From positions 1 through 64,000 of the forward strand of contig VGTH01000023.1 in assembly GCA_016874755.1 (NCBI GenBank): 64,000 nt of DNA. The letters run 5' to 3'. Below are positions 16,187 to 36,589 of the stretch, piece after piece; within the stretch, counting starts at the first letter, position 1, and each line of letters begins with the position of its first letter. Position numbers and translations under genes: made by a program. Below the pieces are notes generated by a model. The model had not been told where the DNA came from and ran no database searches. It worked only from the letters and a program-made list of their open reading frames with translations. Source of the DNA: Deltaproteobacteria bacterium (GTDB lineage Bacteria; Desulfobacterota; Binatia; UBA9968).

Positions 16187-17296
16187 ATGGCCAGCCCATT
16201 CGAGCCGCGCCCGATGGACGAAGTTAAAAAGGAACTGCTCGGTCGCGCCAAAGAAAATCGCAATCCGTTTTTGTTTACGATTTACGAAGAGATCGCGCCG
16301 GCGGTCAGCGGGCTTAAGTCGGTCGATCGTGAAGGGTGGGCCAGTGCGTTCACGGCACTGGCGCCGGCTCATGCCGAGCGTGCCGCTAAAGCCGAAGCAG
16401 CAGGTGACAAGGAAACCGCGCGCAAGGAATATTTGATCGCCTATGACTATTGTCACGTGGCGCGCTATCCGGCGCCCAATTCGCCGGGAAAGCTGGCGGC
16501 CTATCGCAAGTCGCAGGAGTATTACCACAAAGCTGCGCCGTATTTCGATCCGCCGCTCGAACGCGTCGAGATGCCGTTCAAAGGGCGCGCCGGCGAGGGT
16601 AAAGCGTCGATCGGTCTTTTGCGCAAACCCAAGGGCGTCACCAAGCCTGCGGTGGTCGTGATCTGGGGCGGCATCGATGCTTTCAAAGAGGAACGGCCCA
16701 GCGACCCCTACCTAAAAGCCGGCCTGGGCACGTTGTGCATCGATATGCCGGGCGTCGCCGATGCGCCGCTCGCCGGTTCGGAAGATGGTGAGCGATTGTG
16801 GGACGCCGTGTTCGACTTCATCGCCAGCCGCGCCGACCTCGACGCCCATCGCGTCGGCATCGTGGGCGGCAGCACCGGCGGCTATTGGGCGACCAAAGTT
16901 GCCCACACCCATGCGAGCCGTTTGAAGGCGGCGGTCAACCAAGGGGGCCCGGCGCACTTTGCATTTAAAAAAGACTGGATCGTCAAAGCCCAGTGCGGCG
17001 AGTATCCCTTCGAGCTAGCCGAGACCGCCGCTTGCGCGTTCGGCCGTTCCACCGGCGAAGAGTGGATCGAGTATTCGCCCAAGTTGTCGCTGCTCGATCA
17101 GGGTGTGCTCGAGCGGCCGTGTGCGCCGCTCTTGTGCGTCAACGGCGTGAACGACACGGTGTTTCCGATCGCCGACATGTATTTGTTACTCGAACATGGC
17201 AAGCCGAAATCGTCGCGCTTCTATCCCGGCGGCCACATGGGCGGCGGCAATTCGCAAGCGGTGATCATCCAATGGTTGAAGGAACGGTTGGCGTAG
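16187..17296 (+). CDS. Alpha/beta hydrolase (FrsA/esterase-like)
   Basis: A 369-residue serine hydrolase. The nucleophile elbow is GGSTGG (about 228-233), with a later acid in NGVNDTVFP and a histidine in YPGGHMGGG. An N-terminal helical region (1-120) precedes the hydrolase core, as in FrsA-like proteins and 2,6-dihydropseudooxynicotine-hydrolase relatives. The start at MASPFEPRP has a GGAG site (ACGGAGAAATTT). The frame is open 30 codons upstream, but that part overlaps intergenic sequence. It is the first gene of the plus-strand run that leads into the putative biosynthetic cluster. Confidence 0.88.
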   Translation: MASPFEPRPMDEVKKELLGRAKENRNPFLFTIYEEIAPAVSGLKSVDREGWASAFTALAPAHAERAAKAEAAGDKETARKEYLIAYDYCHVARYPAPNSPGKLAAYRKSQEYYHKAAPYFDPPLERVEMPFKGRAGEGKASIGLLRKPKGVTKPAVVVIWGGIDAFKEERPSDPYLKAGLGTLCIDMPGVADAPLAGSEDGERLWDAVFDFIASRADLDAHRVGIVGGSTGGYWATKVAHTHASRLKAAVNQGGPAHFAFKKDWIVKAQCGEYPFELAETAACAFGRSTGEEWIEYSPKLSLLDQGVLERPCAPLLCVNGVNDTVFPIADMYLLLEHGKPKSSRFYPGGHMGGGNSQAVIIQWLKERLA

Positions 17297-17309
17297 AGAA
17301 GGAGAGTCG

Positions 17310-17951
17310 ATGAAACGGTTTGCCAAGGTTCAATTTGCCCTGGCGATTGTGCTGGGTGTTGCCGCGCTGCGCTACGCCTCGGCCGCTTTTGGGGCCGAAG
17401 GCGCGGAGGCAACCCACAACGAGCTGCGCGCGTTGAAGGACGGCGTCACCGCGGCTTTCAACAAGCTCGGCGCCTCGGGCAAAGAAGAAGATCTCGACGC
17501 GGTCCTTCGATATGCGCACAAGAATGTGGTTTTGAATGCCATGAACGGCGCGCGCGCCGTCGGACATGACGGCATCCGCAGGTACTTCCGCCAAACGATG
17601 GTGGGCGAGAATCGCACCGTGCAGAGTGTCCAGCATGAATTCAACGTCGACGCTTTGTCGGTTCTTTACGGCGACGATACGGCGATTGCTTACGGTGACA
17701 CGCGCGGCAAATATGTCCTCACCGGCGGGGTCAATCTGGACGTTAAGGCAACCTGGCTCGGCACGATGGTCAAGGAAAACGACAAGTGGCTGATCGCCGG
17801 ATTCCAGTTCGCGCCGAGTATTTTCGAAAACCCCATCGCGCAGCAGTTGGAGCGCACACTTTACTGGCTGGCGGCGGCTGCCGGATTGGTCGGGCTGCTC
17901 ATAGGCTATTTGCTCGGCAGACGGCGCAAAGCGCGATCATTGCTTAGATGA
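17310..17951 (+). CDS. NTF2/SnoaL-like protein with signal peptide and C-terminal membrane anchor
   Basis: A 213-residue protein: signal peptide (1-29), an NTF2-like alpha+beta cone from about 38 to 170 (NELRALKDGVTAAFNKLG, AVLRYAHKNVVLNAMNG, KENDKWLIAGFQFAP), then one membrane helix (WLAAAAGLVGLLIGYLLG) and a basic tail. It is therefore likely a periplasmic domain tethered to the inner membrane. NTF2-like folds serve as isomerases, cyclases or binding domains. A GGAGAG ribosome site precedes it by 7 bases. Its stop overlaps the desaturase-fusion start (ATGA), so translation of the two is coupled. Confidence 0.8.
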   Translation: MKRFAKVQFALAIVLGVAALRYASAAFGAEGAEATHNELRALKDGVTAAFNKLGASGKEEDLDAVLRYAHKNVVLNAMNGARAVGHDGIRRYFRQTMVGENRTVQSVQHEFNVDALSVLYGDDTAIAYGDTRGKYVLTGGVNLDVKATWLGTMVKENDKWLIAGFQFAPSIFENPIAQQLERTLYWLAAAAGLVGLLIGYLLGRRRKARSLLR

Positions 17952-19852
17952 GGAGCGGGACTCCGCTGAGATTCGCTAAAGCGGTTATCAAACCGCACCG
18001 TGAGAATTCGGCGCTGATTCCCGCTGCGCTCAACATCGCCCTCTTGCTGACCGCGGCGACTAGCGCGCTATTCCTATTGTGGGCGGCGTCGCATGCGGTT
18101 TCTTGGGTCGGACTCGTCAGCGCTGCGATCGCTTTTTCCTTCGTCAACAACAGCATGTTCTCCTTGCTGCACGAGGCGGTGCACGGCCAGTTTCATCGCA
18201 ATCCAAAATTAAACGATGCCTTTGGCCGCATGGCCGCGGTGTTTTTCCCGACCTCCTACTCCATGCAGCGGGTGTTTCACCTCGGCCATCACCAGCGCAA
18301 TCGCAGCGCGGTGGAGCAGTTCGATTATCTTCATCCGGGCGACAACAAGTTTTTCAAATATGCCCAGTGGTACTCGATCCTGACGGGTTTATATTGGGCG
18401 TTCGTGCCGTTGGGCTGCGTGGTTTATCTGCTCGCGCCGTGGGTGTTGCGCTCGCGGGCGCTGCGCTCGAAGGAGTCCAAGCTGGCGCAGCAATCGAGCG
18501 CCGATGCCATGTTCAGCGATTTGGAAAAAGCATCGCCCTGGTGGATGCGCGCGGAGGTTGTCTTGGGCGCCGCGGCTCAGTTTGGATTGATTTATGCGCT
18601 CGACCTAAGCTTGATTGGATGGGGCTCTTGTTACGCTGCCTTCGCCTTCAATTGGAGCTCGCTCCAATACGCCGATCATGCCTGGTCGGTGCTCGACGTG
18701 CGCCAAGGCGCCTGGAACCTGCGCGTAAACAAAATCGTCCAATACCTGTTTCTCAACTACCACCATCATCTAGCGCACCATCAGCGTCCCGAAGTACCGT
18801 GGCTTTATCTGCCGCGCTACGTCGATTTCGCCGCGCCACGGCCGCGCTTTTTGTCCGTGTACCTCAGCATGTGGCGCGGCTTGCGGCCGTTTCCCGACGG
18901 GAATTCAATGGGCGCCGCTCCCTCGCTCGCGAGTCCGAGGCGCGCCGAGTTGACTTGCTTGCGCTTTAACGCGCGCTTTATTCGGCGTCACCTGCGGTAT
19001 CTCATTGTGTTTCTCATCATCTGCCGTTATTCCCTGTTTCGCTGGCGCGCCACGCGCTCGGTTCGGTTTACTTACGCTTTGGCGCAGCATCTTGACGATG
19101 TTCTCGATGGGGACTTCAAAATTCCCGGTGAGCCGGGTGATTATGTCGATGCCGTCATCGGGCAGTTAGATACGGGAAATTTCGCATCGACCGACCTGGG
19201 TAACCTGACCCATTGTGTGGCGGTGGAGTTGAAGAACTTACGTTCCGAACGCGACGAGCCGCTTGGCGAATTGATCGAACTTTTGCGTGTCATGCGCTTT
19301 GACCGGGAGCGGGTGCGCCGGCGGCTGTTGCTCACGCGCGAGGAATTAGCCGAGCATCACCGTCAGACGTTTCATCATTCGGTCAATTTAATGTTGATCG
19401 CGGCCCGCGCCGAATTGCGCGCCGTGGATGCACAAGATCTGGTGCGCGCTTTCGGCTGGTGCTCGACCCTGCGCGATCTGCCCGAGGATATCGAGAAAGG
19501 GCTGTTCAATATTCCCAAGGACGTCGTTGAGCGGGCGATGGCGGAGGGTGCCAAACTCAATTATGCCTCGCTAACGAGTACGGCCGCGGTGCGGCAATGG
19601 ATTCGTGAGCTCCATGGCGAAGGGAAGCAGCATCTCGTTTGGTTTGTTGAACACAGCATTGCACTGAAACATCAATCAGGGGCACGCATCCTGGCGCTTT
19701 TTGCCAAGTCCATGGCTGGTTTTCATGGCCGTTACATCAAGGCCCATGCGGAATTTTTTGCGGATTCTGAAGTTTTCGCTGGCGTCGCGAAGGATACGAC
19801 TGTCCCAAAGGTCGACACGGTAAGTCCAGCGGAAGATTGGAAGGCGACATGA
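17948..19852 (+). CDS. Membrane fatty-acid-desaturase domain fused to a squalene/phytoene-synthase-like domain
   Basis: A 634-residue two-domain protein. Residues 1-320 form a membrane di-iron desaturase/hydroxylase with histidine boxes HEAVHG (75-80), HLGHHQ (111-116) and HHHLAHH (272-278) and several membrane helices. Residues 340-634 resemble trans-isoprenyl head-to-head synthases: a first acidic motif LAQHLDDVLDGD (DDxxD at 383-387) and a second STLRDLPEDIEKGLFNIP (RDxxxD at 509-514), 127 residues apart as in squalene and phytoene synthases. Known enzymes of these classes are separate proteins. I infer a coupled isoprenoid-forming and oxidising enzyme. It overlaps both neighbours by ATGA. 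Confidence 0.8.
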   Translation: MRSGTPLRFAKAVIKPHRENSALIPAALNIALLLTAATSALFLLWAASHAVSWVGLVSAAIAFSFVNNSMFSLLHEAVHGQFHRNPKLNDAFGRMAAVFFPTSYSMQRVFHLGHHQRNRSAVEQFDYLHPGDNKFFKYAQWYSILTGLYWAFVPLGCVVYLLAPWVLRSRALRSKESKLAQQSSADAMFSDLEKASPWWMRAEVVLGAAAQFGLIYALDLSLIGWGSCYAAFAFNWSSLQYADHAWSVLDVRQGAWNLRVNKIVQYLFLNYHHHLAHHQRPEVPWLYLPRYVDFAAPRPRFLSVYLSMWRGLRPFPDGNSMGAAPSLASPRRAELTCLRFNARFIRRHLRYLIVFLIICRYSLFRWRATRSVRFTYALAQHLDDVLDGDFKIPGEPGDYVDAVIGQLDTGNFASTDLGNLTHCVAVELKNLRSERDEPLGELIELLRVMRFDRERVRRRLLLTREELAEHHRQTFHHSVNLMLIAARAELRAVDAQDLVRAFGWCSTLRDLPEDIEKGLFNIPKDVVERAMAEGAKLNYASLTSTAAVRQWIRELHGEGKQHLVWFVEHSIALKHQSGARILALFAKSMAGFHGRYIKAHAEFFADSEVFAGVAKDTTVPKVDTVSPAEDWKAT

Positions 19853-20907
19853 GTGGCACAACGCCCGCTGAAGTTATTGCCATTCGCCCAGAAGCGCTTC
19901 GCGCGCCGCCGGCTACGGCTTTCGTTAAGTTTCCGGCCTCGTGGTATCTGTTCTCGACCGCGGTTGACTTGACGGAAAAGGCGGTGGGCAAGTCGATGTT
20001 CGGGCGCAAGCTCGTGGCATTTCGCACCGCGAGCGGCGTGCCCGTAATCATGGATAGCCGTTGCTCGCATCTCGGTGCCGATTTGAGCAAGGGTCACGTC
20101 GAGGGGGAAAACATTCGCTGTCCGTTTCACGGCTGGGCCTACGGAACGGACGGCCAATGTCTGGCGATTCCCAATGCCAATCACATCCCGGCGTTTGCCC
20201 GGCAAATGGCCTATCCTGTCGAGGAGCGTCATGGATTGATATTTGTTTTCAACGGGCCAGAGGCTTTGTTCCCGCTGCCACGATTTGCGGACGAGGCGAG
20301 CGATGGCTGGATCGCCGAGAAACCGGCGCGGTTTCTGGCCGAATGCTCTTGGTACATGGTGGCGGCCCATGGCTACGACCGGCAACATTTTGCCACCGTC
20401 CATGGCCGCCAGCTCATCGGGCCGTTGGCGGTCGATTGCCCGGCGGTGTTTGCGCGCCGCAGCTGCTACACGGCGGAGATCGTCGGCGAGAAATATTACG
20501 ATAGGACATTGCGCCGATTGTTGTCGCGCCAAGTGACGATCTCGATTACGACTTGGGGTGGGAGCTTGGTCATGATCACCGGTGACTTTGGCCGGGTGCA
20601 GAGCCGATTTATGATCGTGTTAAATCCACTGGACGATCACCGCACGGAGTGCTCGGTGATCGTCGTTAAAAAACAAAGCGAAAGGGCGCTCGGCAAATTG
20701 CTTTGGGATCCGTTCAGCCTCGCCGTGCGAAAGCTACTGACCCGCGGCTATCTGGTAGACGAGGTGTCCAGCCTCGGCCGTCCGCGCTACGCGCCGCAGC
20801 GTTTAATCGAAGCGGACCGTGAGATGATCGAATATTTTCGCTGGGTGGCTGCACTGCCGCAGTCGAAGTCAGATGTTTTACCTCATCTCGTGGGTTCCGC
20901 TTTGTAG
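19849..20907 (+). CDS. Rieske non-haem iron oxygenase
   Basis: A 352-residue oxygenase alpha subunit. The Rieske [2Fe-2S] ligands are Cys72, His74, Cys91 and His94 (RCSHLG, CPFHGW), and the mononuclear iron site is the D-x2-H-x4-H in GYDRQHFATVH (Asp177, His180, His185). The ATG overlaps the stop of the desaturase fusion (ATGA). Rieske oxygenases of this size act on sterols, aromatics or alkyl chains. No ferredoxin or reductase partner is encoded nearby. The stop codon TAG lies inside a palindromic repeat, so the C-terminus may have been altered by its insertion. Confidence 0.9.
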   Translation: MSGTTPAEVIAIRPEALRAPPATAFVKFPASWYLFSTAVDLTEKAVGKSMFGRKLVAFRTASGVPVIMDSRCSHLGADLSKGHVEGENIRCPFHGWAYGTDGQCLAIPNANHIPAFARQMAYPVEERHGLIFVFNGPEALFPLPRFADEASDGWIAEKPARFLAECSWYMVAAHGYDRQHFATVHGRQLIGPLAVDCPAVFARRSCYTAEIVGEKYYDRTLRRLLSRQVTISITTWGGSLVMITGDFGRVQSRFMIVLNPLDDHRTECSVIVVKKQSERALGKLLWDPFSLAVRKLLTRGYLVDEVSSLGRPRYAPQRLIEADREMIEYFRWVAALPQSKSDVLPHLVGSAL

Positions 20908-20927
20908 GGGCGACCGGTTGGCCGCCC
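20904..20927. repeat. GTAGGGGCGACC palindromic repeat overlapping a stop codon
   Basis: GTAGGGGCGACCGGTTGGCC with the following GCCC forms a short palindrome. Bases 20905-20907 are the TAG stop of the Rieske gene. The same family occurs at 62182-62206. Confidence 0.75.
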
Positions 20928-21022
20928 TCCCGACAAAATGACACAGCGCCAACCCTCTCAGAGCCCAGGTGCATTTATCCCAACTTAATACTATCATTGA
21001 CTCTGTTTCTGGTCAGGCTTGC

Positions 21023-22408
21023 ATGCCGCGCTCAAACTTTCACATTACGCTGATCTCCCCCAAGGGGCCGCTCTATCGTCACCGCGGCGGTATTTTTAAA
21101 CAATCGCTGCGCTACATGCCGCTAACGCTGCCGACACTGACGGCCTTGGTGCCGAAGGAGCTGCAGGCGACAGTGACCTGCATCGACGAAGGCATCGGCG
21201 ATGTCGATCTGAATCTGCACAGCGATCTCATCGGCATCACCGTGATTACCGGCACTGCGCCGCGGGCGTACGAATTGGCCGATCATTTTCGCTCGCGCAA
21301 TATTCCGGTAGTACTCGGCGGGCCGCATGTGACTTTGATTCCCGACGATGCGCAGCCGCACGCCGATAGCGCCGTCGTCGGTTATGCCGAGGAAGAGTGG
21401 CCGCGCTTGCTGCGCGATTTCGCCGCGGGTCAGATGAAGCCGCGCTACACGCAATCGCCGGATTTGGAATTGACCGGCTATCCGCTGCCCGACCGTAGCG
21501 TTTTGCCGCGCTGGAAATATTCGACGTCCAACGTTTTCGAAGCCTCGCGCGCCTGTATTCACAACTGTTCGTTCTGCGTCGTGCCGGCCGCCTGGGGACG
21601 CAAGCCTTTCAAGAAACCTGTGGCTGCCATCGTTGAGGACATCAAGCGGCAGCGGGCGCGCCGGGCGATTTTCATCGATCTGAATCTGATCTCGGATAAA
21701 GAGTACGCCGCCGAGCTGTTCACGGCGCTGATTCCCTTGAAGATCGAATGGTACGGTCTAGCAACCACGATGCTGTGCGACGATATTCCGTTGTTAGATT
21801 TGGTCGAGCGCAGCGGCTGCCGCGGCCTGCTCATGGGCTTGGAGTCGATCTCCAAGCGCAATCTGCGCACGAGCAGCAAGGGCTTCAACGATCCGGAAAA
21901 ATATCCGCAAGTCGTCGAGCGATTGCACCAGCGCAGGATTGCGCTGCAGGGCTGCTTTGTCTTCGGACTGGACGAAGACACGCCGGACGTTTTTCTCAAG
22001 ACCGCGGAATTTGCCGTGAAGGCGCGCATCGATCTGCCGCGCTTCGCGGTGGTTACGCCCTTTCCCGGCACCGATCTGCATCAGCGCCTGGATCGCGAAG
22101 GGCGCATTCTGACGCGCGACTGGGAGCGCTACGACGGCCAGCATGTCGTCTTTCAGCCGCTGCAGATGAGCGTCGATCAATTGCAGCGCGGCACCGAGAC
22201 GGCGTGGAAGTATGGCTATAGTTGGAGCCATATGGCCGAACGGCTGCGCTACACGGCGGCGCCCTGGCACGTGGCGCTGTTTACCAATCTCAGTTACCGC
22301 TACTACGCGCATCGGCTGCACAAATTTTACAACTGCGATTGGATGTCGTCGCCGTTGTGGCAAGAGTCCGGCGCTAGGGCGCGCGCGCTTGCACCGGCTT
22401 CTAAGTAG
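21023..22408 (+). CDS. B12-binding-type radical SAM protein (first copy)
   Basis: A 461-residue radical SAM enzyme with an N-terminal cobalamin-binding-like domain (1-140, with VVLGGPHVTLIPDDA) and the cluster motif ACIHNCSFC (Cys178, 182, 185). A C-terminal region (MAERLRYTAAPWHVALFTNL) resembles the tail found in BchE/HpnJ-type enzymes. This class does methylation, ring contraction or oxidation at unactivated carbons. The start at MPRSNFHI is preferred; a GTG 18 codons earlier is possible. It shares the plus-strand run with the second radical SAM gene. Confidence 0.88.
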   Translation: MPRSNFHITLISPKGPLYRHRGGIFKQSLRYMPLTLPTLTALVPKELQATVTCIDEGIGDVDLNLHSDLIGITVITGTAPRAYELADHFRSRNIPVVLGGPHVTLIPDDAQPHADSAVVGYAEEEWPRLLRDFAAGQMKPRYTQSPDLELTGYPLPDRSVLPRWKYSTSNVFEASRACIHNCSFCVVPAAWGRKPFKKPVAAIVEDIKRQRARRAIFIDLNLISDKEYAAELFTALIPLKIEWYGLATTMLCDDIPLLDLVERSGCRGLLMGLESISKRNLRTSSKGFNDPEKYPQVVERLHQRRIALQGCFVFGLDEDTPDVFLKTAEFAVKARIDLPRFAVVTPFPGTDLHQRLDREGRILTRDWERYDGQHVVFQPLQMSVDQLQRGTETAWKYGYSWSHMAERLRYTAAPWHVALFTNLSYRYYAHRLHKFYNCDWMSSPLWQESGARARALAPASK

Positions 22409-22454
22409 TTTCGTCATGCTTGTAGACAAAACGTGCTTCAGGGAATGCCGGATT

Positions 22455-22552
22455 GTTTCCCCCTTTGACAAAGGGGGACTAAGGGGGATTTGTCCCTGTG
22501 GGCGGAAGAAAATGCCCGCTTGCCCCGCCTTTTCAAAGCGGGGAATCAACGA
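22455..22552. repeat. CCCCCTTTG...CAAAGGGGG palindromic repeat
   Basis: CCCCCTTTGACAAAGGGGG at 22459-22477 and a second hairpin-forming arm (GCCCCGCCTTTTCAAAGCGG) at about 22528-22547 lie between the two radical SAM genes. This is the same family as the element inside the GNAT gene at 24465-24574 and the one at 36434-36589. Confidence 0.8.
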
Positions 22553-22580
22553 GTGCTGACGCAACCGCGGCTTGTTGTTT

Positions 22581-23999
22581 ATGCAACCTTCGGGTAAATC
22601 CCAACCGTTTCGCCTCACCATCATCCACCCCTGCGTTGGCCGCTTCGTCGGCATGAAGCGCTACATCCGGACTTGGCAGATGGAGCCGATCCCCGCCGCG
22701 ATGATCGCAGCGTTGAGTCCAGCGGCTGTGGAAAAACGATTCTACGACGATCGCTTCGAGCCGATTCCCGTCGATGAGCCCACCGACCTGGTGGCGATGA
22801 GCGTGGAGACCTATACGGCCAAGCGCTGCTACCAGATCGCCAGCGAATATCGCAAGCGCGGGGTGCCGGTGGTGATGGGCGGGTTTCATGCATCGCTCTG
22901 TCCCGATGAAGTCGCAGAGTATTGCGAGACGCTGGTCGTCGGCGAGGCCGAAGAGCTGTTTCCCGAGGTGATCGATGACTATCGCCACGGGCGGCCGCGG
23001 AAGATTTACCAAAGCCAGCAGCGGCCGCGCTTGGTCGTAACGCCAGACCGCTCGATCTTTTGCGACAAGAAATATTTGCGCATCAAGCTCGTCGAATTTG
23101 CCCGCGGCTGCCGCTTTCGCTGCGATTTCTGCGCGATCCAATCCTTCTTCGACGGCACACACAATCACCGGCCGGTGGACCGGGTGATCGATGAGATTCA
23201 ACAGGTGCGCCGGCCCGGACAGATGTTTTTCTTCATCGATGACAACATCACGTCGAGCCTCGACGATGCCAAAGAATTAATGCGTGCTTTGATCCCGCTC
23301 AAGATTCGTTGGGTCAGCCAGTCGGCGATCAACGTAGCCTGGGATGAAGAGGCGCTCGATCTCATGCAGCGCAGCGGCTGCCAGGGGATTCTCATCGGTT
23401 TCGAATCGCTGCACATGGACACGCTGCGGCAGATGAAGAAGGGCTTCAACATGCTGCATGGCGGGCCGGCGGCGGCGCTGGCCAATTTGCGCCGGCACAA
23501 TCTACGTGTCTACGGGACGTTCATATTCGGCTACGATCACGACACCGCGGAGACCTTCACTCAAGCAGTTGAGTTCGCCAAAGAGCAGGGCCTGTTTATC
23601 GCTGCGTTCAATCACATCACGCCGTTTCCCGGCACGCCGCTGTATCAGAGAATGCAGAAAGAAGGCCGACTCTTGTTCGATCCCTGGTGGTTGGACGAGC
23701 GCTACGCCTACAACATGATCCCGTTTCAACCAAAAAATATGTCGCCCGAAGAGCTGGCGGATCATTGCGTCGAAGCGCGCCGCAGCTTTTACTCCTGGCC
23801 GAGTATCTTTAAGAGATCGAGCCAGCCGCTGCATCTGCACAGCCCCTATATGCTGGCTAATTTCTTCATCATCAACGCCATGCACCAGTGGGACGTAGAA
23901 AGCCGCAACGGGCTGCCGCTGGGCGATCGCAATTGGCATGGGCAACTCATCAAAGCAGACACGAATCGCTACTCCGCTAAACTCGGGGCGTACGCATGA
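22581..23999 (+). CDS. B12-binding-type radical SAM protein (second copy)
   Basis: A 472-residue paralogue-class enzyme of the preceding one, but not a close duplicate. The N-terminal domain (10-140) carries VVMGGFHASLCPDE, and the [4Fe-4S] motif is GCRFRCDFC (Cys177, 181, 184). HITPFPGTPLYQRM parallels VVTPFPGTDLHQRL in the first copy. The ATG at 22581 was chosen over two TTG codons just upstream; no ribosome site is obvious. The stop overlaps the start of the GNAT-like gene (ATGA). It probably performs a successive or alternative carbon modification in the same pathway. Confidence 0.88.
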   Translation: MQPSGKSQPFRLTIIHPCVGRFVGMKRYIRTWQMEPIPAAMIAALSPAAVEKRFYDDRFEPIPVDEPTDLVAMSVETYTAKRCYQIASEYRKRGVPVVMGGFHASLCPDEVAEYCETLVVGEAEELFPEVIDDYRHGRPRKIYQSQQRPRLVVTPDRSIFCDKKYLRIKLVEFARGCRFRCDFCAIQSFFDGTHNHRPVDRVIDEIQQVRRPGQMFFFIDDNITSSLDDAKELMRALIPLKIRWVSQSAINVAWDEEALDLMQRSGCQGILIGFESLHMDTLRQMKKGFNMLHGGPAAALANLRRHNLRVYGTFIFGYDHDTAETFTQAVEFAKEQGLFIAAFNHITPFPGTPLYQRMQKEGRLLFDPWWLDERYAYNMIPFQPKNMSPEELADHCVEARRSFYSWPSIFKRSSQPLHLHSPYMLANFFIINAMHQWDVESRNGLPLGDRNWHGQLIKADTNRYSAKLGAYA

Positions 24000-25186
24000 A
24001 CCGGTTTGAATTTGGCCTCGCCGAGCCTAGCGATGATGCCGTGCTGCGCAACTTGATGGCGGCAACGCCCTCGGGTGGCAAGGTGGTTGTCTCTTTTCGG
24101 CGCGAGCCGAGTTATTTCGATGCGGCTGTGGTGGAAGGCCCGTTCCGTCAAACCATCGTGGCGCGTGACCGGGAAAGCGGCTGTGTTGCCGCAGTGGGGG
24201 ACCGCTCCGTGCGCCAGCGTTTTGTCAATGGCGTGCCGACGCCGATCGGTTTTTTGAGCAACTTGAGAATTCTACCGCAGTATCGCAATCAGTCGATTCT
24301 AGCGCGCGGCTTTCGTCATCTGCGTTGTTTGCACCGCGATGGGCGTGCGAGGCTCTATCTCTCGACTATAGCTAAAGGCAACCAGGTCGCGGCATCCGCG
24401 CTGACGACCGGCCGCGCTTGTTTGCCGAGGTATCACTATGCTGGTGACTACCACACTGCGGTGATCCCGCTTCGAAAGAACCCCCCTTTGAAAAAGGGGG
24501 GTAGGGGGGATTCTAACCCTTCGCGCGAAGATCAAATCCCCTGCTATCCCCCTTTTTCAAAGGGGGAAGCGGGACGAAACGGCGTATTCGTGCGGGAGGC
24601 AAAGCCTGAAGACGTGTCTCGGTTGATCGAATTCTTGAATCAGTCTGGTCAGGTACGCCAATTCTTTCCGGTGTACGGTGTTGCTGATTTTTTCAGTGCA
24701 TCAGGTAGTTTTCGCGATTTGCGTGAGAGCGACATACTATTAACCTTTCGTGGCTCCGAGATTGTCGGCACCTTGGCTTGTTGGAACCAAATCGCCTTCC
24801 GCCAAACCGTAGTCGAGAGTTACAGTACCGCCGTGAGTTGGGTGCGGCCATTGGTAAATAGCTGGGCGCAACTGCGCGGCGCAGTGACTTTGCCAAAGGC
24901 AGGAGAGCCGTTTCGTTTCGTGAGCGGCGCGCTGCCGCTGGTGAAAAACGACGATCCGCAAATTTTCGAGCCGCTGCTACAGGCGGCGCGTTCCAATGTA
25001 AGCGATCCGCGCGCCGAGTATTTGTTAATCGGCCTGCACGAGCGCGATCCGTTGCGTCCGGTGGTGGAAAAATATCAAACCACCATCTACTCGGTTGGAG
25101 TCTACTATGTTTGCTGGGAAGAGGGTGAGTCTTTGCGCGCGCAGTTGGACGACCGGCCGCCATACCTGGAGCTTGGGTGCCTCTAA
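23996..25186 (+). CDS. GNAT-like acyltransferase with an in-frame palindromic insert
   Basis: A 396-residue protein with two GNAT-like halves. The first shows PIGFLSNLRILPQYRNQSIL and the second starts VFVREAKPEDVSRLIEFLNQSG. Between them, residues about 158-193 (NPPLKKGGRGDSNPS to PPFSKGEAG) are encoded by a palindromic repeat at 24465-24574 that keeps the frame. The insert sits at the domain junction, which could explain its tolerance. The gene is coupled to the radical SAM gene by ATGA. The acyl donor and acceptor are unknown; N-acylation of an amine is the family's usual chemistry. Confidence 0.75.
   Translation: MNRFEFGLAEPSDDAVLRNLMAATPSGGKVVVSFRREPSYFDAAVVEGPFRQTIVARDRESGCVAAVGDRSVRQRFVNGVPTPIGFLSNLRILPQYRNQSILARGFRHLRCLHRDGRARLYLSTIAKGNQVAASALTTGRACLPRYHYAGDYHTAVIPLRKNPPLKKGGRGDSNPSREDQIPCYPPFSKGEAGRNGVFVREAKPEDVSRLIEFLNQSGQVRQFFPVYGVADFFSASGSFRDLRESDILLTFRGSEIVGTLACWNQIAFRQTVVESYSTAVSWVRPLVNSWAQLRGAVTLPKAGEPFRFVSGALPLVKNDDPQIFEPLLQAARSNVSDPRAEYLLIGLHERDPLRPVVEKYQTTIYSVGVYYVCWEEGESLRAQLDDRPPYLELGCL
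24465..24574. repeat. Palindromic repeat inside the GNAT-like gene
   Basis: Outer arms TCCCGCTT (24465-24472) and AAGCGGGA (24567-24574) enclose CCCCCCTTTGAAAAAGGGGG and CCCCCTTTTTCAAAGGGGG arms with a GATC-containing centre. It is a full copy of the family seen at 22455-22552 and 36434-36589, here wholly inside a coding frame with no stop. Confidence 0.88.
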
Positions 25187-25188
25187 CC

Positions 25189-25926
25189 ATGAGACTCCGC
25201 GCGCAGGTAATTCCCATCGCTGAAGTCGCGAGCCGCCGGCGCGACGAGATGTTCGCGTTGATGGAGCAATACTATGCGGGCATGAAGCGCGAGACTTTCG
25301 AGAACGATCTCAGTGAGAAGCAATGGGTCATCGAGCTCATTGACCAAGGGACACAAGAGTTGCGCGGCTTTTCGACGCAGATGGTGATCGCTGTGGAAGT
25401 GCGCGGGCAGCCGATTCGCGCGCTGTTTTCTGGCGATACGATCGTCGACCGTGGTTGCTGGGGACAGAGTGTGCTGGCGCAGGCCTGGGGACAGTTGGCT
25501 TTGAGCTTGATCGACGACAACTCGCCGCGGGATTTGTTTTGGTTTCTGATCAGCAAGGGTTACAAGACTTACCGTTATTTGCCGGTATTCTTTCGCGAGT
25601 TTTATCCGCGCTTTGACGCCGTCACGCCGGAGTGGGCGCGGAAAACCATCGACGTGTTGGGAGTGAAAAAATACCCGGCGCTCTACGAGCCGTGGCGCGG
25701 CATCGTGCGCGCCGAGCCATCGGGTTGTCGGCTTCGTCGTGGCGTTGCCGAGCTTGCGGATGCGCGACTGCGCGATCCTCATATTCGATTTTTCAAGGAG
25801 CGAAACCCTGGTCACGGTCAGGGCGATGAGCTTTGTTGCCTCGCGCCGATCACGCGAGAGAACTTTTCGCTCGCGGCGGCGCGACCGCTGCGCGGTGAAG
25901 CGGCGGCATGGAGCGCGCTCGGATGA
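25189..25926 (+). CDS. GNAT-fold-like protein of unknown substrate
   Basis: A 245-residue protein beginning MRLRAQVIPIAEVASRRRDE, placed 2 bases after the previous stop. The segments MFALMEQYYAGMKRETFENDL and FSGDTIVDRGCWGQSVLAQAW resemble acyl-CoA N-acyltransferase folds, with the second in place of the usual acyl-CoA loop, but the classical R/Q-x-x-G-x-G/A motif is not clear. KGYKTYRYLPVFFREFYPRF is the longest conserved-looking stretch. Its last four bases overlap the GH3 start. I infer a second acyl-transfer step in the cluster; identity is uncertain. Confidence 0.65.
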   Translation: MRLRAQVIPIAEVASRRRDEMFALMEQYYAGMKRETFENDLSEKQWVIELIDQGTQELRGFSTQMVIAVEVRGQPIRALFSGDTIVDRGCWGQSVLAQAWGQLALSLIDDNSPRDLFWFLISKGYKTYRYLPVFFREFYPRFDAVTPEWARKTIDVLGVKKYPALYEPWRGIVRAEPSGCRLRRGVAELADARLRDPHIRFFKERNPGHGQGDELCCLAPITRENFSLAAARPLRGEAAAWSALG

Positions 25927-27590
25927 ACTCGGCGTACTGGCTCAACACCGCTTGGATGTGGAAATGCCATGCTGAGCTCAGGCGCTTCCAACGGGCGACC
26001 CATGCTGTCGCCCAGGCGCAGGCTCAAGTGTTGCGCCAGATTGTCCTTCAAAACCGCAATAGCGAATTCGGCCGAACCCATGATTTTGCCGAGATCCGTG
26101 CACCCGGCGACTTTCAGCAGCGCGTATCGCTGGCAACCTATGACGATTTTCGCCCAGCCATCGGTCGCCTCGCGAATGATTGTAGGGGCAACCCTTGTGG
26201 TTGCCCAAACCAGGCGGACAGAGGCTTTCTTACAGAACAAGAAGTTTTGCTCCTTGAGCCCACCAGCGGCAGCAGCGGCGGCGAAAAATTGATTCCCTAC
26301 ACTGCGCCTCTTCGCGCCGAGTTTCAGTGCGGCATCGATGCGTGGATTGCTGATCTCATGGCGTCCTATCCAGACGTGCGCCAGGGCCGCGCCTATTGGT
26401 CCATCTCTCCGGCGCTGGGACCGTCGCGCAAGACGCCGAGCGGGATTCCGATCGGCTTTGACGACGACACCGCCTATTTGGGAGTGGCCGAGTGCTGGGC
26501 CATGAAGCGGCTGCTCGCCGTGCCACCGGAGCTGGCAAAGGTGAGCGACCTGGAGGAATTTCGCTATCAAACGCTGCTACACTTGTTGGCCGCGGATGAT
26601 CTGGTTTTGATTTCCATATGGAGTCCGACTTTCTTGACGGCTCTGTTATCCCAGCTCGACAGCGGCGCCGAGCGCTTGTGTGCGGATTTGCACGCCGCCT
26701 TGGCAACAAACAAAACGGGCCGACAAGAACGGGCCGACGAGGTTGCTGTCATCCTGAGCGCGAATCAATCGCCGACTTGGAAGCTCCGGCGTATTTGGCC
26801 GCGGCTCGCGTTGATTAGCTGCTGGGCCGACGGAGCGTCGGCACGCTACGCAAAAGAGTTGCAGCAACTGTTTCGGCACGTCGCGATCCAACCCAAGGGA
26901 CTGTTGGCTACCGAAGCGTTCGTGTCGTTCCCATTGGCCGGTCGAAAGGGTGCCGTGTTGGCGCTGCGCTCGCACTTTTTCGAATTTCTCGACGCGCATG
27001 GAGAAATGAAGCTGGCACATCAACTGGAAGAGGGTGGTTACTACCAAGTCGTGGTCACAACCGGCGGCGGACTCTATCGCTATCGATTGGGTGACATGGT
27101 CGAGGTTGTCGGTTTTGAAAATCAATGTCCGCTGCTTCGCTTTGTCGGCCGCGCCGATCGGGTCAGCGATCTAGTCGGCGAAAAACTCGACGAGATGCAT
27201 GTGCGTGCGGTGCTCGACCAGGTGTTTGCTCGCCATGGGGTAGCTCCGAGTTTCTCGATGCTCGTGCCCGTAGACAACGGCGTGCGCCGTTATCGGCTCT
27301 ATTTGCAGGGAATTGTGTTAACTGCTGGCCAGATCAGACACCTGACAGAGGAGATCGAGACCGGATTCGACGGCAATCCCTACTATCGCTACGCGGTTCG
27401 AATCGGGCAGCTCTCGAGACTTCAAGTGCGGGTCTTACCGCCAAGCGCGGCCTCGGCCTGGTCGTTGTACGAGCGCGAATGTTTGACGCGGGGCCAAAAG
27501 CTCGGCGACATCAAGCCGACGGTGATGCATAATTGGCCGGGGTGGGCGGAAAGATTTGAGGCGTTGACGCCATCGGTCGCTCCGAAGTAA
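25923..27590 (+). CDS. GH3-family acyl-adenylating enzyme
   Basis: A 555-residue member of the GH3 auxin-conjugating-enzyme family, which adenylates a carboxylate and joins it to an amine. The ATP loop is EPTSGSSGGEKLIPYT (about 112-127). YRYRLGDMVEVVGF and FVGRADRVSDLVGEKL are the late GH3 signatures. The ATG at 25923 overlaps the preceding stop and has GGAG ten bases before; an ATG at 25908 is also possible. Residues about 86-97 (DCRGNPCGCPNQ) come from a palindromic repeat inserted in frame. It is the last gene of the cluster and suggests the product contains an amide or activated acid. Confidence 0.85.
   Translation: MNSAYWLNTAWMWKCHAELRRFQRATHAVAQAQAQVLRQIVLQNRNSEFGRTHDFAEIRAPGDFQQRVSLATYDDFRPAIGRLANDCRGNPCGCPNQADRGFLTEQEVLLLEPTSGSSGGEKLIPYTAPLRAEFQCGIDAWIADLMASYPDVRQGRAYWSISPALGPSRKTPSGIPIGFDDDTAYLGVAECWAMKRLLAVPPELAKVSDLEEFRYQTLLHLLAADDLVLISIWSPTFLTALLSQLDSGAERLCADLHAALATNKTGRQERADEVAVILSANQSPTWKLRRIWPRLALISCWADGASARYAKELQQLFRHVAIQPKGLLATEAFVSFPLAGRKGAVLALRSHFFEFLDAHGEMKLAHQLEEGGYYQVVVTTGGGLYRYRLGDMVEVVGFENQCPLLRFVGRADRVSDLVGEKLDEMHVRAVLDQVFARHGVAPSFSMLVPVDNGVRRYRLYLQGIVLTAGQIRHLTEEIETGFDGNPYYRYAVRIGQLSRLQVRVLPPSAASAWSLYERECLTRGQKLGDIKPTVMHNWPGWAERFEALTPSVAPK
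26182..26206. repeat. GTAGGGGCAACC palindromic repeat inside the GH3 gene
   Basis: GTAGGGGCAACCCTTGTGGT plus TGCCC makes a perfect GGGCAACC/GGTTGCCC stem. It matches the first half of the element at 13797-13855 and is read in frame as RGNPCGCP within the GH3 protein. Confidence 0.85.
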
Positions 27591-27729: not shown

Positions 27730-28716
27730 ATGGGACACATGATGAATGGCAAATGGGTCGACGACGACACGATTCCGGCCGATGCGAAGGGCGCGTTCGT
27801 GCGCGCCGATTCGCAGTTTCGTAGCTGGGTCACCGCCGACGGCAGTGCTGGCCCATCGGGTAGCGCGGGGTTCAAAGCCGAGCCAGGGCGCTATCATCTT
27901 TTCGTCTCGTACAATTGTCCCTGGGCGCACCGCACGATTATTTTTCGCAAGCTGAAAAAATTGGAAAACGTGATCAGTCTGTCGCTGGCCGACAAGCCCA
28001 AGGCCCACGGCTGGGCTTATTCCGAAACGATTGACGACTTTACGACGGCGGCTGACGGTGTCTTTCGGTTGTCACAGGTCTATGCCGCCGCAGATCGCAA
28101 CTATACCGGCAAGGTTACGGTGCCGACGTTGTGGGACCGCGAGAAGCGGACTATCGTCAATAACGAGTCGTCGGAAGTCGTCCGCATGCTCAACTCCGGC
28201 TTCGCCGCGCATACCGACGTGAGCTACGATTTCTATCCCGCTGACCTACGTCCAGAGATCGACCGCATCAACGATTTCGTCTACGGCCATTTCAACAACG
28301 GCGTCTATCGCACAGGCTTCGCGCGCAGCCAAGAGGCGTACAATGAAGCGGTAAAGAAAGTTTTCGTCTGCTTGGACCAGATGGAACAGTGGTTAGGCGA
28401 GCGGCGCTATCTCGCCGGCGATCGCATCACCGAAGCCGACTGGCGTGCCTTTCCGACGCTGCTGCGCTTCGACCTGGTTTACTACAGCCACTTCAAGTGC
28501 AATTTGAAGCGCGTGCAGGACTATCCGAATCTCGCCAACTACCTGCGCGAGCTGTACCAGTGGCCGGGCATCAAAGACACGTTGGATTTGGAAGAAACCA
28601 AGAAAGGCTATTACGGCCAGCGCAATGTGAATCCGACTGGAATTGTGCCGTTAGGACCGGACGTGAGCCATCTAGAAGCGCCGCATGATCGCGGGCTTTT
28701 GGGGGGTAAGAGTTAG
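27730..28716 (+). CDS. Glutathionyl-hydroquinone reductase (omega/xi-type glutathione transferase)
   Basis: A 328-residue enzyme of the YqjG/ECM4 family that reduces glutathionyl-hydroquinones. The catalytic cysteine is in YNCPWAHRTI (about residue 61), and DYPNLANYLRELYQWPGI with the late TEADWRAFPTLLRFDLVY region is typical. The start has a strong AAGGAG site. It probably has its own promoter after the repeat-filled gap. Function fits recycling of quinones after glutathione attack, with the cysteine in the canonical position. Confidence 0.92.
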   Translation: MGHMMNGKWVDDDTIPADAKGAFVRADSQFRSWVTADGSAGPSGSAGFKAEPGRYHLFVSYNCPWAHRTIIFRKLKKLENVISLSLADKPKAHGWAYSETIDDFTTAADGVFRLSQVYAAADRNYTGKVTVPTLWDREKRTIVNNESSEVVRMLNSGFAAHTDVSYDFYPADLRPEIDRINDFVYGHFNNGVYRTGFARSQEAYNEAVKKVFVCLDQMEQWLGERRYLAGDRITEADWRAFPTLLRFDLVYYSHFKCNLKRVQDYPNLANYLRELYQWPGIKDTLDLEETKKGYYGQRNVNPTGIVPLGPDVSHLEAPHDRGLLGGKS

Positions 28717-36433: not shown

Positions 36434-36589
36434 CTTCCGCCTTTGAAAAAGGGGGACCGAGGGGGATTTGCATTCAACGCGCTTGAGAAATTCCCACCGA
36501 TCGCCCCTTGAGGATGTGGAAAATCATGAGCCTCTCTACCCACGCCCCGGAAATCTCCCCTAACCCCTCTTTCCAAAGAGGGAAATCGG
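36434..36589. repeat. CCGCCTTTGAAAAAGGGGG repeat, long copy
   Basis: CTTCCGCCTTTGAAAAAGGG with GGACCGAGGGGGATTTGC at the left and AAATCTCCCCTAACCCCTCT at the right are imperfect arms of the family seen at 22455 and 24465. It accounts for most of the gap 36386-36665, in which I see no gene. Confidence 0.75.

Follow-up and report, generated by a model that had tools for sequence, protein, structure and literature searches.

The nine-gene operon

The subject of this study is a run of nine genes, P1 to P9, at 16187-27590 on the plus strand of a stretch of 64,000 nucleotides (hereafter the window) from a Deltaproteobacteria bacterium of the class Binatia (contig VGTH01000023.1, assembly GCA_016874755.1); all nine open reading frames (ORFs) are present. 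P1 (16187..17296) encodes an alpha/beta hydrolase (FrsA-like) with a GxSxG motif, and a GGAG was seen by eye upstream of its ATG at 16187; P2 (17310..17951) encodes an NTF2-like (DUF4440) protein, P3 (17948..19852) a fusion of a membrane diiron desaturase with a squalene/phytoene-synthase-like (hereafter SQS-like) domain, and P4 (19849..20907; the ORF also opens at 19837) a Rieske oxygenase. These are followed by two B12-binding radical SAM enzymes, namely P5 or rSAM1 (21023..22408; the ORF opens at 20969, and the start was picked by comparison with the relative in genome G307) and P6 or rSAM2 (22581..23999; the ORF opens at 22572), then by two GNAT-like proteins, P7 or GNAT1 (23996..25186) and the small P8 or GNAT2 (25189..25926; the ORF opens at 25177), and finally by P9 (25923..27590; the ORF also opens at 25908), an adenylating enzyme resembling the GH3 acyl acid amido synthetases. 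We incline to the view that this operon is one form of a conserved orphan cluster family for an oxidised, radical-SAM-modified lipid acid that is amidated by the GH3 enzyme.

An earlier reading made from the DNA letters (hereafter the sequence-only reading) had described this plus-strand run and its close joints, and both the ORF list and our inspection of the sequence bear it out. ATGA overlaps join P2 to P3, P3 to P4, P6 to P7, and P8 to P9, where those at P3/P4 and P8/P9 assume the later of two possible starts for P4 and P9; the spacing is 2 bases between P7 and P8 and 13 bases between P1 and P2, and P5 and P6, at their likely starts, are preceded by gaps of about 115 and 170 bases, respectively. 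The run is thus tight, with two loose joints ahead of P5 and P6. A promoter and terminator scan gave counts close to chance (8 vs 4.3 and 19 vs 15.6) and was not used.

Protein families encoded by the operon

The assignments proposed in the sequence-only reading for the alpha/beta hydrolase, the NTF2-like protein, the desaturase with its SQS-like domain, the Rieske oxygenase, the two B12-type radical SAM enzymes, and the GH3 enzyme are all backed by Pfam. P2 matches DUF4440, with SnoaL_2 just under the cut-off, and its alignment and inspection by eye indicate an N-terminal hydrophobic leader and a C-terminal membrane anchor that is followed by GRRRK; because of this leader and anchor, the domain of the NTF2-like protein is probably located outside the cytoplasm. 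P3 matches FA_desaturase and SQS_PSY and has three His boxes and two DxxxD motifs, and its C-terminal domain scores 40.2 bits against PF00494 (cut-off, 26), which places it in the squalene/phytoene synthase family of Pfam. Against the NCBIfam equivalog of the beta-carotene ketolase CrtW, P3 remained far under the cut-off (32.7 of 350 bits), and no solved structure matched P3 at E 1. P4 possesses CxH..CxxH for a [2Fe-2S] site and HxxxxH for the His pair at a mononuclear iron, as in Rieske oxygenases, and its top matches among PDB sequences are 3-ketosteroid 9-alpha-hydroxylases (E 3e-26). Both P5 and P6 combine B12-binding and Radical_SAM domains with the CxxxCxxC motif of the radical SAM superfamily, and all of their listed matches to the NCBIfam models of HpnJ, BchE, and the ladderane protein were under the cut-offs. 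P9 scores 143.4 bits against PF03321 (cut-off, 23.6) and 69.8 bits against PF23571, and the nucleotide-binding motifs TSGSSGG, ATE, and GLYRYRLGD mark it as a GH3 protein.

In contrast to these seven proteins, neither P7 nor P8 matches any Pfam family at E 1. Acetyltransf_1 is weakly matched by two of eight GNAT1 members (best E 4e-4) and two of eight GNAT2 members (best E 0.041), one GNAT2 member matches Acetyltransf_9 (E 0.0037), and a distant relationship links the GNAT1 and GNAT2 families (hhalign E 4e-5, probability 71%). The label "GNAT-like" is therefore fair but not proven; as used in the sequence-only reading, it finds weak backing in the relatives but none in Pfam matches of the window proteins themselves. 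An alignment of nine GNAT2 members contains 24 invariant columns, including SGDT and NP..G.EL.C. Profiles of GNAT1 and GNAT2 gave nothing convincing against solved structures (best E 0.025 and 0.56), and an AlphaFold model of P8 from its single sequence had a pLDDT of 39 and was not used. P7 furthermore carries an in-frame insert of roughly 35 residues that is largely lacking in its relatives. Within this insert lies, also in-frame, a dispersed hairpin repeat of two 18-bp palindromes 66 bp apart (24482-24566); the repeat of two 18-bp palindromes is found again in the P5-P6 gap (22459-22542), and a single palindrome is at 36437-36455. The pattern of this repeat has 11 overlapping matches at five places in the window, with 0.04 expected.

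Related loci in other genomes and on plasmids

Genomes are referred to by G numbers, G000 being that of the window. The query of the genome collection with P3 retrieved a single related locus, in the metagenome-assembled genome BWSM_10 (JASBRJ010000049.1; L003), where an NTF2-like protein with the layout of P2, a Rieske protein, a desaturase that shares 50% identity with P3, and a PAP2/SQS-like protein are encoded side by side. In the last protein the SQS-like part follows the PAP2 domain; Pfam makes no call for this part, which was found via its similarity to P3 (30% over 283 residues). Although BWSM_10 had been fetched with P3 alone, a search of its genome with P9 revealed GH3 on another contig, where rSAM2 (51%), GNAT1 (identified by profile, E 2e-28), and GNAT2 stand ahead of GH3 and rSAM1 (55%) lies on the opposite strand; just upstream of rSAM2 is a fusion of acyl carrier protein (ACP), acyl-AMP ligase, and acyltransferase (LPLAT). 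BWSM_10 accordingly holds eight of the nine gene families, on two contigs, and P1 was sought only in the two stretches fetched from it. The phylum of BWSM_10 appears to differ from that of the window, because the former has 149 genomes in all and the latter was represented by a sample of 395 genomes out of more. G030 also encodes a protein related to this ACP/acyl-AMP ligase/acyltransferase fusion (38% identity; C14, L098 8668-11523), away from the core genes of that genome.

Searches with GH3 and GNAT2 across 148 genomes of the same class as the window led to G314 and G307, and the phylum sample of 395 genomes led to G421 and G030. Both G307 and G421 have rSAM1-rSAM2-GNAT1-GNAT2-GH3 in the same order as the window, with identities of 66/72/30/41/40% and 54/55/35/45/44%, respectively, and a CDP-alcohol transferase gene comes after the block in G421. 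G030 has a three-gene core of GNAT1, GNAT2, and GH3. In G314, GNAT2, GH3, GNAT1, a Rieske protein, and a desaturase were found together with PAP2 and NTF2 by profile, and an acyl-activating protein there contains a fused acyltransferase plus an MFS domain. A chance run of genes is hence rejected: two further genomes show the five genes in this order, and most of the set is found again in another phylum. This agrees with the single pathway that the sequence-only reading had supposed. The homologues are not scattered, the order being kept in G307 and G421, and no assignment of the same gene order to a known pathway was found in the literature searches made.

A GNAT2 search of the 149 genomes of the BWSM_10 phylum added G662-G666, G672, and G673. 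In G662-G666, a desaturase, a P450, and GNAT1-GNAT2-GH3 form a single run; PAP2 is present in four of the five, as are NTF2 and an acyltransferase, and rSAM1 and rSAM2 adjoin the run in four (G662, G663, G665, and G666), the contig of G664 starting within the cluster. The order in G672 and G673 is GNAT2, GH3, rSAM1, rSAM2, GNAT1, with radical SAM proteins that are less similar to those of the window (37-46% identity).

The plasmid collection added three loci, on an IncF plasmid of Citrobacter portucalensis, a replicon of Burkholderia arboris, and a record of Acinetobacter baumannii. The C. portucalensis cluster (L056 20010-32105) is on an IncFIB/IncFII plasmid typed as mobilizable and comprises GNAT2, GH3, rSAM1, rSAM2, GNAT1, two radical SAM genes, PAP2, an NTF2-like gene, a fifth radical SAM gene, and a desaturase; a 3,991-base piece of it had no match in E. 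coli genomes. In B. arboris, a weak PAP2 match (19.9 bits vs the Pfam cut-off of 27.2) is fused to a desaturase (L057 13482-15377, minus strand), and the top NCBIfam match of this desaturase is the guanitoxin arginine hydroxylase GntB, under its cut-off. The A. baumannii run (L058 12462-19826) consists of an EmrA/EmrB-type pump, GNAT2, GH3, a TolC-type channel, and GNAT1, where the pump and channel were recognised by eye; two records were matched and one was opened. This MFS pump beside the core may be AmfAB (A1S_1772/1773; PMC10812440, PMC8543017). According to PMC10812440, the AmfAB operon has no outer-membrane gene; L058 differs from it in having the TolC-type gene two genes further on.

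The A. baumannii locus brings up the idea of an exported small metabolite or signal, for which the core would produce an acyl amide that is soluble and leaves the cell through a pump, with the tailoring genes only decorating it. The pump and channel, together with a LuxR-type regulator recognised by eye about 7 kb upstream of the core run, are consistent with this, as is the MFS domain in the acyl-activating protein of G314; on the other hand, the nine window genes include no transporter, and a substrate bound to the membrane is suggested by the desaturase in the membrane and the anchored NTF2-like protein, so that we regard this idea as rather unlikely.

Co-occurrence of the gene families

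One profile per family was run across the fetched stretches of 16 loci, namely the window and 15 others (G314, G307, G421, G030, BWSM_10, G662-G666, G672, G673, Citrobacter, Burkholderia, and A. baumannii), with five of the profiles built partly from rows of these loci. GNAT1, GNAT2, and GH3 occur together in 16/16; the loci were mostly found via GNAT2, GH3, or P3, and the presence of a bait is hence by construction, that of the other families not. Both rSAM1 and rSAM2 are found in 11 loci, the desaturase in 10, the NTF2-like protein in eight (seven of the other 15), PAP2 in nine (in G314 and G421 only with a profile built in this analysis), LPLAT in seven, and the SQS-like domain in two (the window and BWSM_10). 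No relative of P1 was detected at E 1e-4 with a single-sequence profile in the stretches of the other 15 loci (1/16 in total), and P1 is therefore rejected as a core member of the cluster. Where a stretch reaches a contig edge (G664, G673, G663, and L003 of BWSM_10), absences are not firm.

In terms of oxidising enzymes, a Rieske protein is present in four loci and a P450 in five, never both in one locus, and one or the other accompanies nine of the ten desaturases; the exception is Citrobacter, with its three further radical SAM genes. The sequence-only reading had the scaffold oxidised three ways, which fits the window (diiron desaturase, Rieske, and radical SAM); the five P450-bearing genomes, however, have no Rieske in view, and A. 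baumannii and G030 have the core with no oxidising enzymes in the fetched stretch.

As controls, three other GH3 loci (G314 C11, G000 C6, and Streptomyces, for which two records were matched and one opened) had no other cluster family except an acyltransferase in G000 C6. A Streptomyces plasmid GH3 (L099 7875-13335) is accompanied by a type I polyketide synthase, a P450, and a threonyl-tRNA ligase, a locus that we take to be reminiscent of borrelidin clusters.

These counts also bear on whether two unrelated modules simply adjoin in the window genome. The rSAM-GNAT-GH3 block does occur with neither desaturase nor Rieske in the fetched stretches of G307 and G421; nonetheless, the GNAT-GH3 core is linked to a cluster desaturase in G662-G666, G314, Citrobacter, and Burkholderia, the radical SAM pair also adjoins in G662, G663, G665, G666, and Citrobacter, and BWSM_10 has both parts, albeit on separate contigs. 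Two such modules are thus very improbable, and we continue with a single cluster family.

Phylogeny and distribution

In a tree of GH3 proteins, nine cluster GH3s were set apart from 10 other GH3s of the class by a single branch with a support of 100/100; the tree covers nine of the 16 cluster GH3s, those of G662-G666, G672, and G673 being left out. A single branch, again with 100/100, separates ten cluster desaturases from 12 others of the class, the controls being L002, L005-L014, and L016, with L015 and the lower-scoring L017-L032 left out. Among the matches listed for the 395-genome sample, where scoring was limited to four candidates per genome, rSAM2 identities above 42% are confined to G000 and G421, in both of which the gene adjoins the core, and the score then drops from 571 to 321 bits.

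GNAT2 was found in four of 148 class genomes at E 1e-3 (counting the window genome and one match that is weak and partial), four of 395 phylum-sample genomes at E 1e-10 (again counting the window genome; one match was weak and lay at the end of a contig, and no more than seven candidates per genome were scored), and, in the BWSM_10 phylum, eight of 149 genomes at E 1e-8 (BWSM_10 included). Four genomes of the same genus, G316-G319, one of which is 67% complete, gave no GNAT2 match, and the operon is hence patchy, as expected for an accessory pathway. A scan of viral contigs with GNAT2 gave 17 pattern matches and no relative. Outside the 16 loci, GNAT2 relatives were also noted in G088 and in eight Azospirillum plasmid records; in the one Azospirillum record opened, the relative (L059 12001-12678) has neither GH3 nor GNAT1 in the fetched stretch. 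Next to the operon, a glutathione S-transferase gene lies at 27730-28716 of the window, 139 bases past the operon end, and had no match near the cluster in tblastn screens of the other loci.

Proposed pathway

Gene content, motifs, conservation, and linkage were observed; all of the reactions, their sequence, and the product are proposals from here on. GH3 enzymes form an acyl-AMP and then transfer the acyl group to an amine. In the core of GNAT1, GNAT2, and GH3, the GH3 enzyme would accordingly activate a carboxylic acid as its acyl-AMP and hand it to an amine to give an amide, and the two GNAT-like enzymes may transfer acyl groups to the amide product or its amine partner. "Joined to an amine", as the sequence-only reading had it, fits this conserved core and draws on the GH3 motifs and the chemistry of the family. 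Surrounding the core would be a lipid-tailoring module, in which the two B12-type radical SAM enzymes may act on unactivated carbons, the membrane diiron desaturase/hydroxylase and the Rieske oxygenase (a P450 in other genomes) would oxidise, the PAP2 or SQS-like domain may handle a lipid or prenyl diphosphate, and the membrane-anchored NTF2-like protein would operate on what is probably the non-cytoplasmic side. As the product we propose an oxidised acyl amide of amphipathic character, which would either stay in the membrane as a lipid or be exported as a metabolite. The exported metabolite above, and the terpenoid and aminolipid discussed below, are narrower versions of this proposal.

Within the gene set, PAP2 and the SQS-like domain seem to occupy one place: the SQS-like domain is on the desaturase in the window and together with PAP2 in one protein of BWSM_10, PAP2 alone comes after the desaturase in G664, and a weak PAP2 match is on another desaturase in Burkholderia. 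Either may have a lipid or prenyl diphosphate as its substrate. In a terpenoid pathway, the SQS-like domain would join two prenyl diphosphates to give a product that, once oxidised to an acid, GH3 would amidate. A carotenoid cluster is present in the window genome (G000 C33; L069 4411-13771) and contains two prenyl-diphosphate-synthase-like genes, one of which exceeds the FPP synthase cut-off, as well as CrtI-family desaturase, CrtB-like, CruF-like, and Dxs genes; prenyl precursors therefore probably exist in this genome. The terpenoid pathway is also in line with the Pfam score of the P3 domain, in which both DxxxD motifs are kept, with the PAP2 domain preceding the SQS-like part in BWSM_10, which could remove diphosphate, and with the steroid hydroxylases being nearest to P4 in the PDB. 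The SQS-like domain is, however, confined to two of the 16 loci, in one of which it is seen only via similarity to P3 and not by Pfam. As a general reading, the isoprenoid pathway is thus rejected, and for the operon we consider it unlikely. The "isoprenoid or long-chain scaffold" of the sequence-only reading hence loses its isoprenoid half as a general feature. Enzymes of lipid metabolism are recurrent neighbours, namely acyltransferases, an acyl-AMP ligase with ACP, and a CDP-alcohol transferase, and the acyltransferase is fused to an acyl-activating domain in both G314 and BWSM_10. Across the cluster family, we consider a scaffold from fatty acids slightly more probable than one from isoprenoids, although in the versions of the window and BWSM_10 an isoprenoid scaffold is still an option.

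Several observations weigh against an amidated lipid acid as the common product. In A. baumannii and G030, the core has no lipid-tailoring or oxidising genes in the fetched stretch, and the core may therefore make a non-lipid product; neither desaturase nor NTF2 is found in the stretches of G307, G421, G030, G672, G673, and A. baumannii. More distant GNAT2 relatives, in Azospirillum (one of eight records opened) and G088 (at a contig end), have no GH3 in the fetched stretch. The collection of loci via GNAT2, GH3, or P3 biases the core count of 16/16, the acyltransferase within 5 kb of a control GH3 (own genome, C6) means that this neighbour is not specific, and the GNAT assignment of P7 and P8 is weak. 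Also, the tree program warned of long rows for Citrobacter, BWSM10, and Burkholderia in the GH3 tree and for Burkholderia, Citrobacter, and G314 in the desaturase tree, and of long branches that meet in the latter; placements within the cluster groups are hence unsure.

The sequence-only reading knew of no described pathway with this set, and none was found in the searches made of open PMC full texts, where absence does not equal absence from print; the cluster is apparently undescribed. It is quite possible that its products constitute a new class of bacterial lipids or lipid-like compounds, in which a scaffold would be reshaped by B12-type radical SAM enzymes, a diiron enzyme of the membrane, and an exchangeable Rieske or P450 and would receive a GH3 amide cap. 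Two GNAT-like enzymes, seemingly from families not yet described, would take part, and the set occurs in at least two phyla, on an IncF plasmid, and as a stripped-down core in A. baumannii. That much of the composition is kept across distant lineages probably reflects selection for one kind of product, and the cluster gives a context to two families with no Pfam match, GNAT1 and GNAT2. Cultured organisms hold other versions, namely the three-gene core in A. baumannii and the core with the radical SAM pair, desaturase, and NTF2 on the Citrobacter plasmid. GH3 amide chemistry could extend beyond ornithine lipids.

Comparison with known systems

The radical SAM enzymes share the architecture of B12-binding and radical SAM domains with the hopanoid protein HpnJ, the top NCBIfam match of both, but score only 65.8 (P5) and 98.3 bits (P6) against its cut-off of 577.6, and 61.9 and 83.4 bits against the cut-off of 360 for the ladderane model TIGR04072. 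P4 has the Rieske and HxxxxH ligands in common with KshA, the 3-ketosteroid 9-alpha-hydroxylase; Pfam recognised no other steroid-type gene among the nine. The C-terminal part of P3 shares the Pfam family and two DxxxD motifs with squalene/phytoene synthases and differs from them in its fusion to a desaturase and in its score, 42.6 bits vs 240.4 for the CrtB-like enzyme of the same genome. All ten PDB sequence matches of P9 are plant GH3 proteins (GH3.5, GH3.12, and JAR1; best E 3e-16), to which the similarity is confined to stretches, and P9 differs from them in belonging to a bacterial operon. The P9 motif GLYRYRLGD is quoted for plant JAR1 in PMC12493201.

The closest parallel is the OlsH/OlsI/OlsG pathway for ornithine lipids in Singulisphaera, where, according to PMC12493201, OlsH, a GH3 enzyme of bacteria, forms N-acyl ornithine and the alpha/beta hydrolase OlsI, its partner, performs the O-acyltransferase step. 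This suggests a membrane aminolipid of the ornithine-lipid kind, for which GH3 would amidate a fatty acid and an acyltransferase or P1 would add a second acyl group as in OlsH/OlsI. Such a product is possible but doubtful. Genes for a putatively amide-forming GH3-type enzyme and an alpha/beta hydrolase are likewise in one operon in the window, LPLAT is present in seven of the 16 loci, including the fusion just upstream of rSAM2 in BWSM_10, and a CDP-alcohol transferase follows the block in G421; against it, LPLAT is also near one control GH3, and P1 is in the fetched stretch of no other locus. No methyltransferase domain, as would be expected of a counterpart to the N-methyltransferase OlsG, was found by Pfam in P1-P9, and P9 scores 50.8 bits against the cut-off of 620 for the OlsH equivalog of NCBIfam, so that membership in an OlsH ornithine-lipid operon is rejected. 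We therefore return to the broader family of amidated lipid acids, in which the window operon adds radical SAM, desaturase, Rieske, and GNAT-like genes to what the Ols pathway has. P9 keeps the GH3 nucleotide-binding motifs and is yet far from the OlsH model, and it is hence likely to act on another pair of acid and amine.

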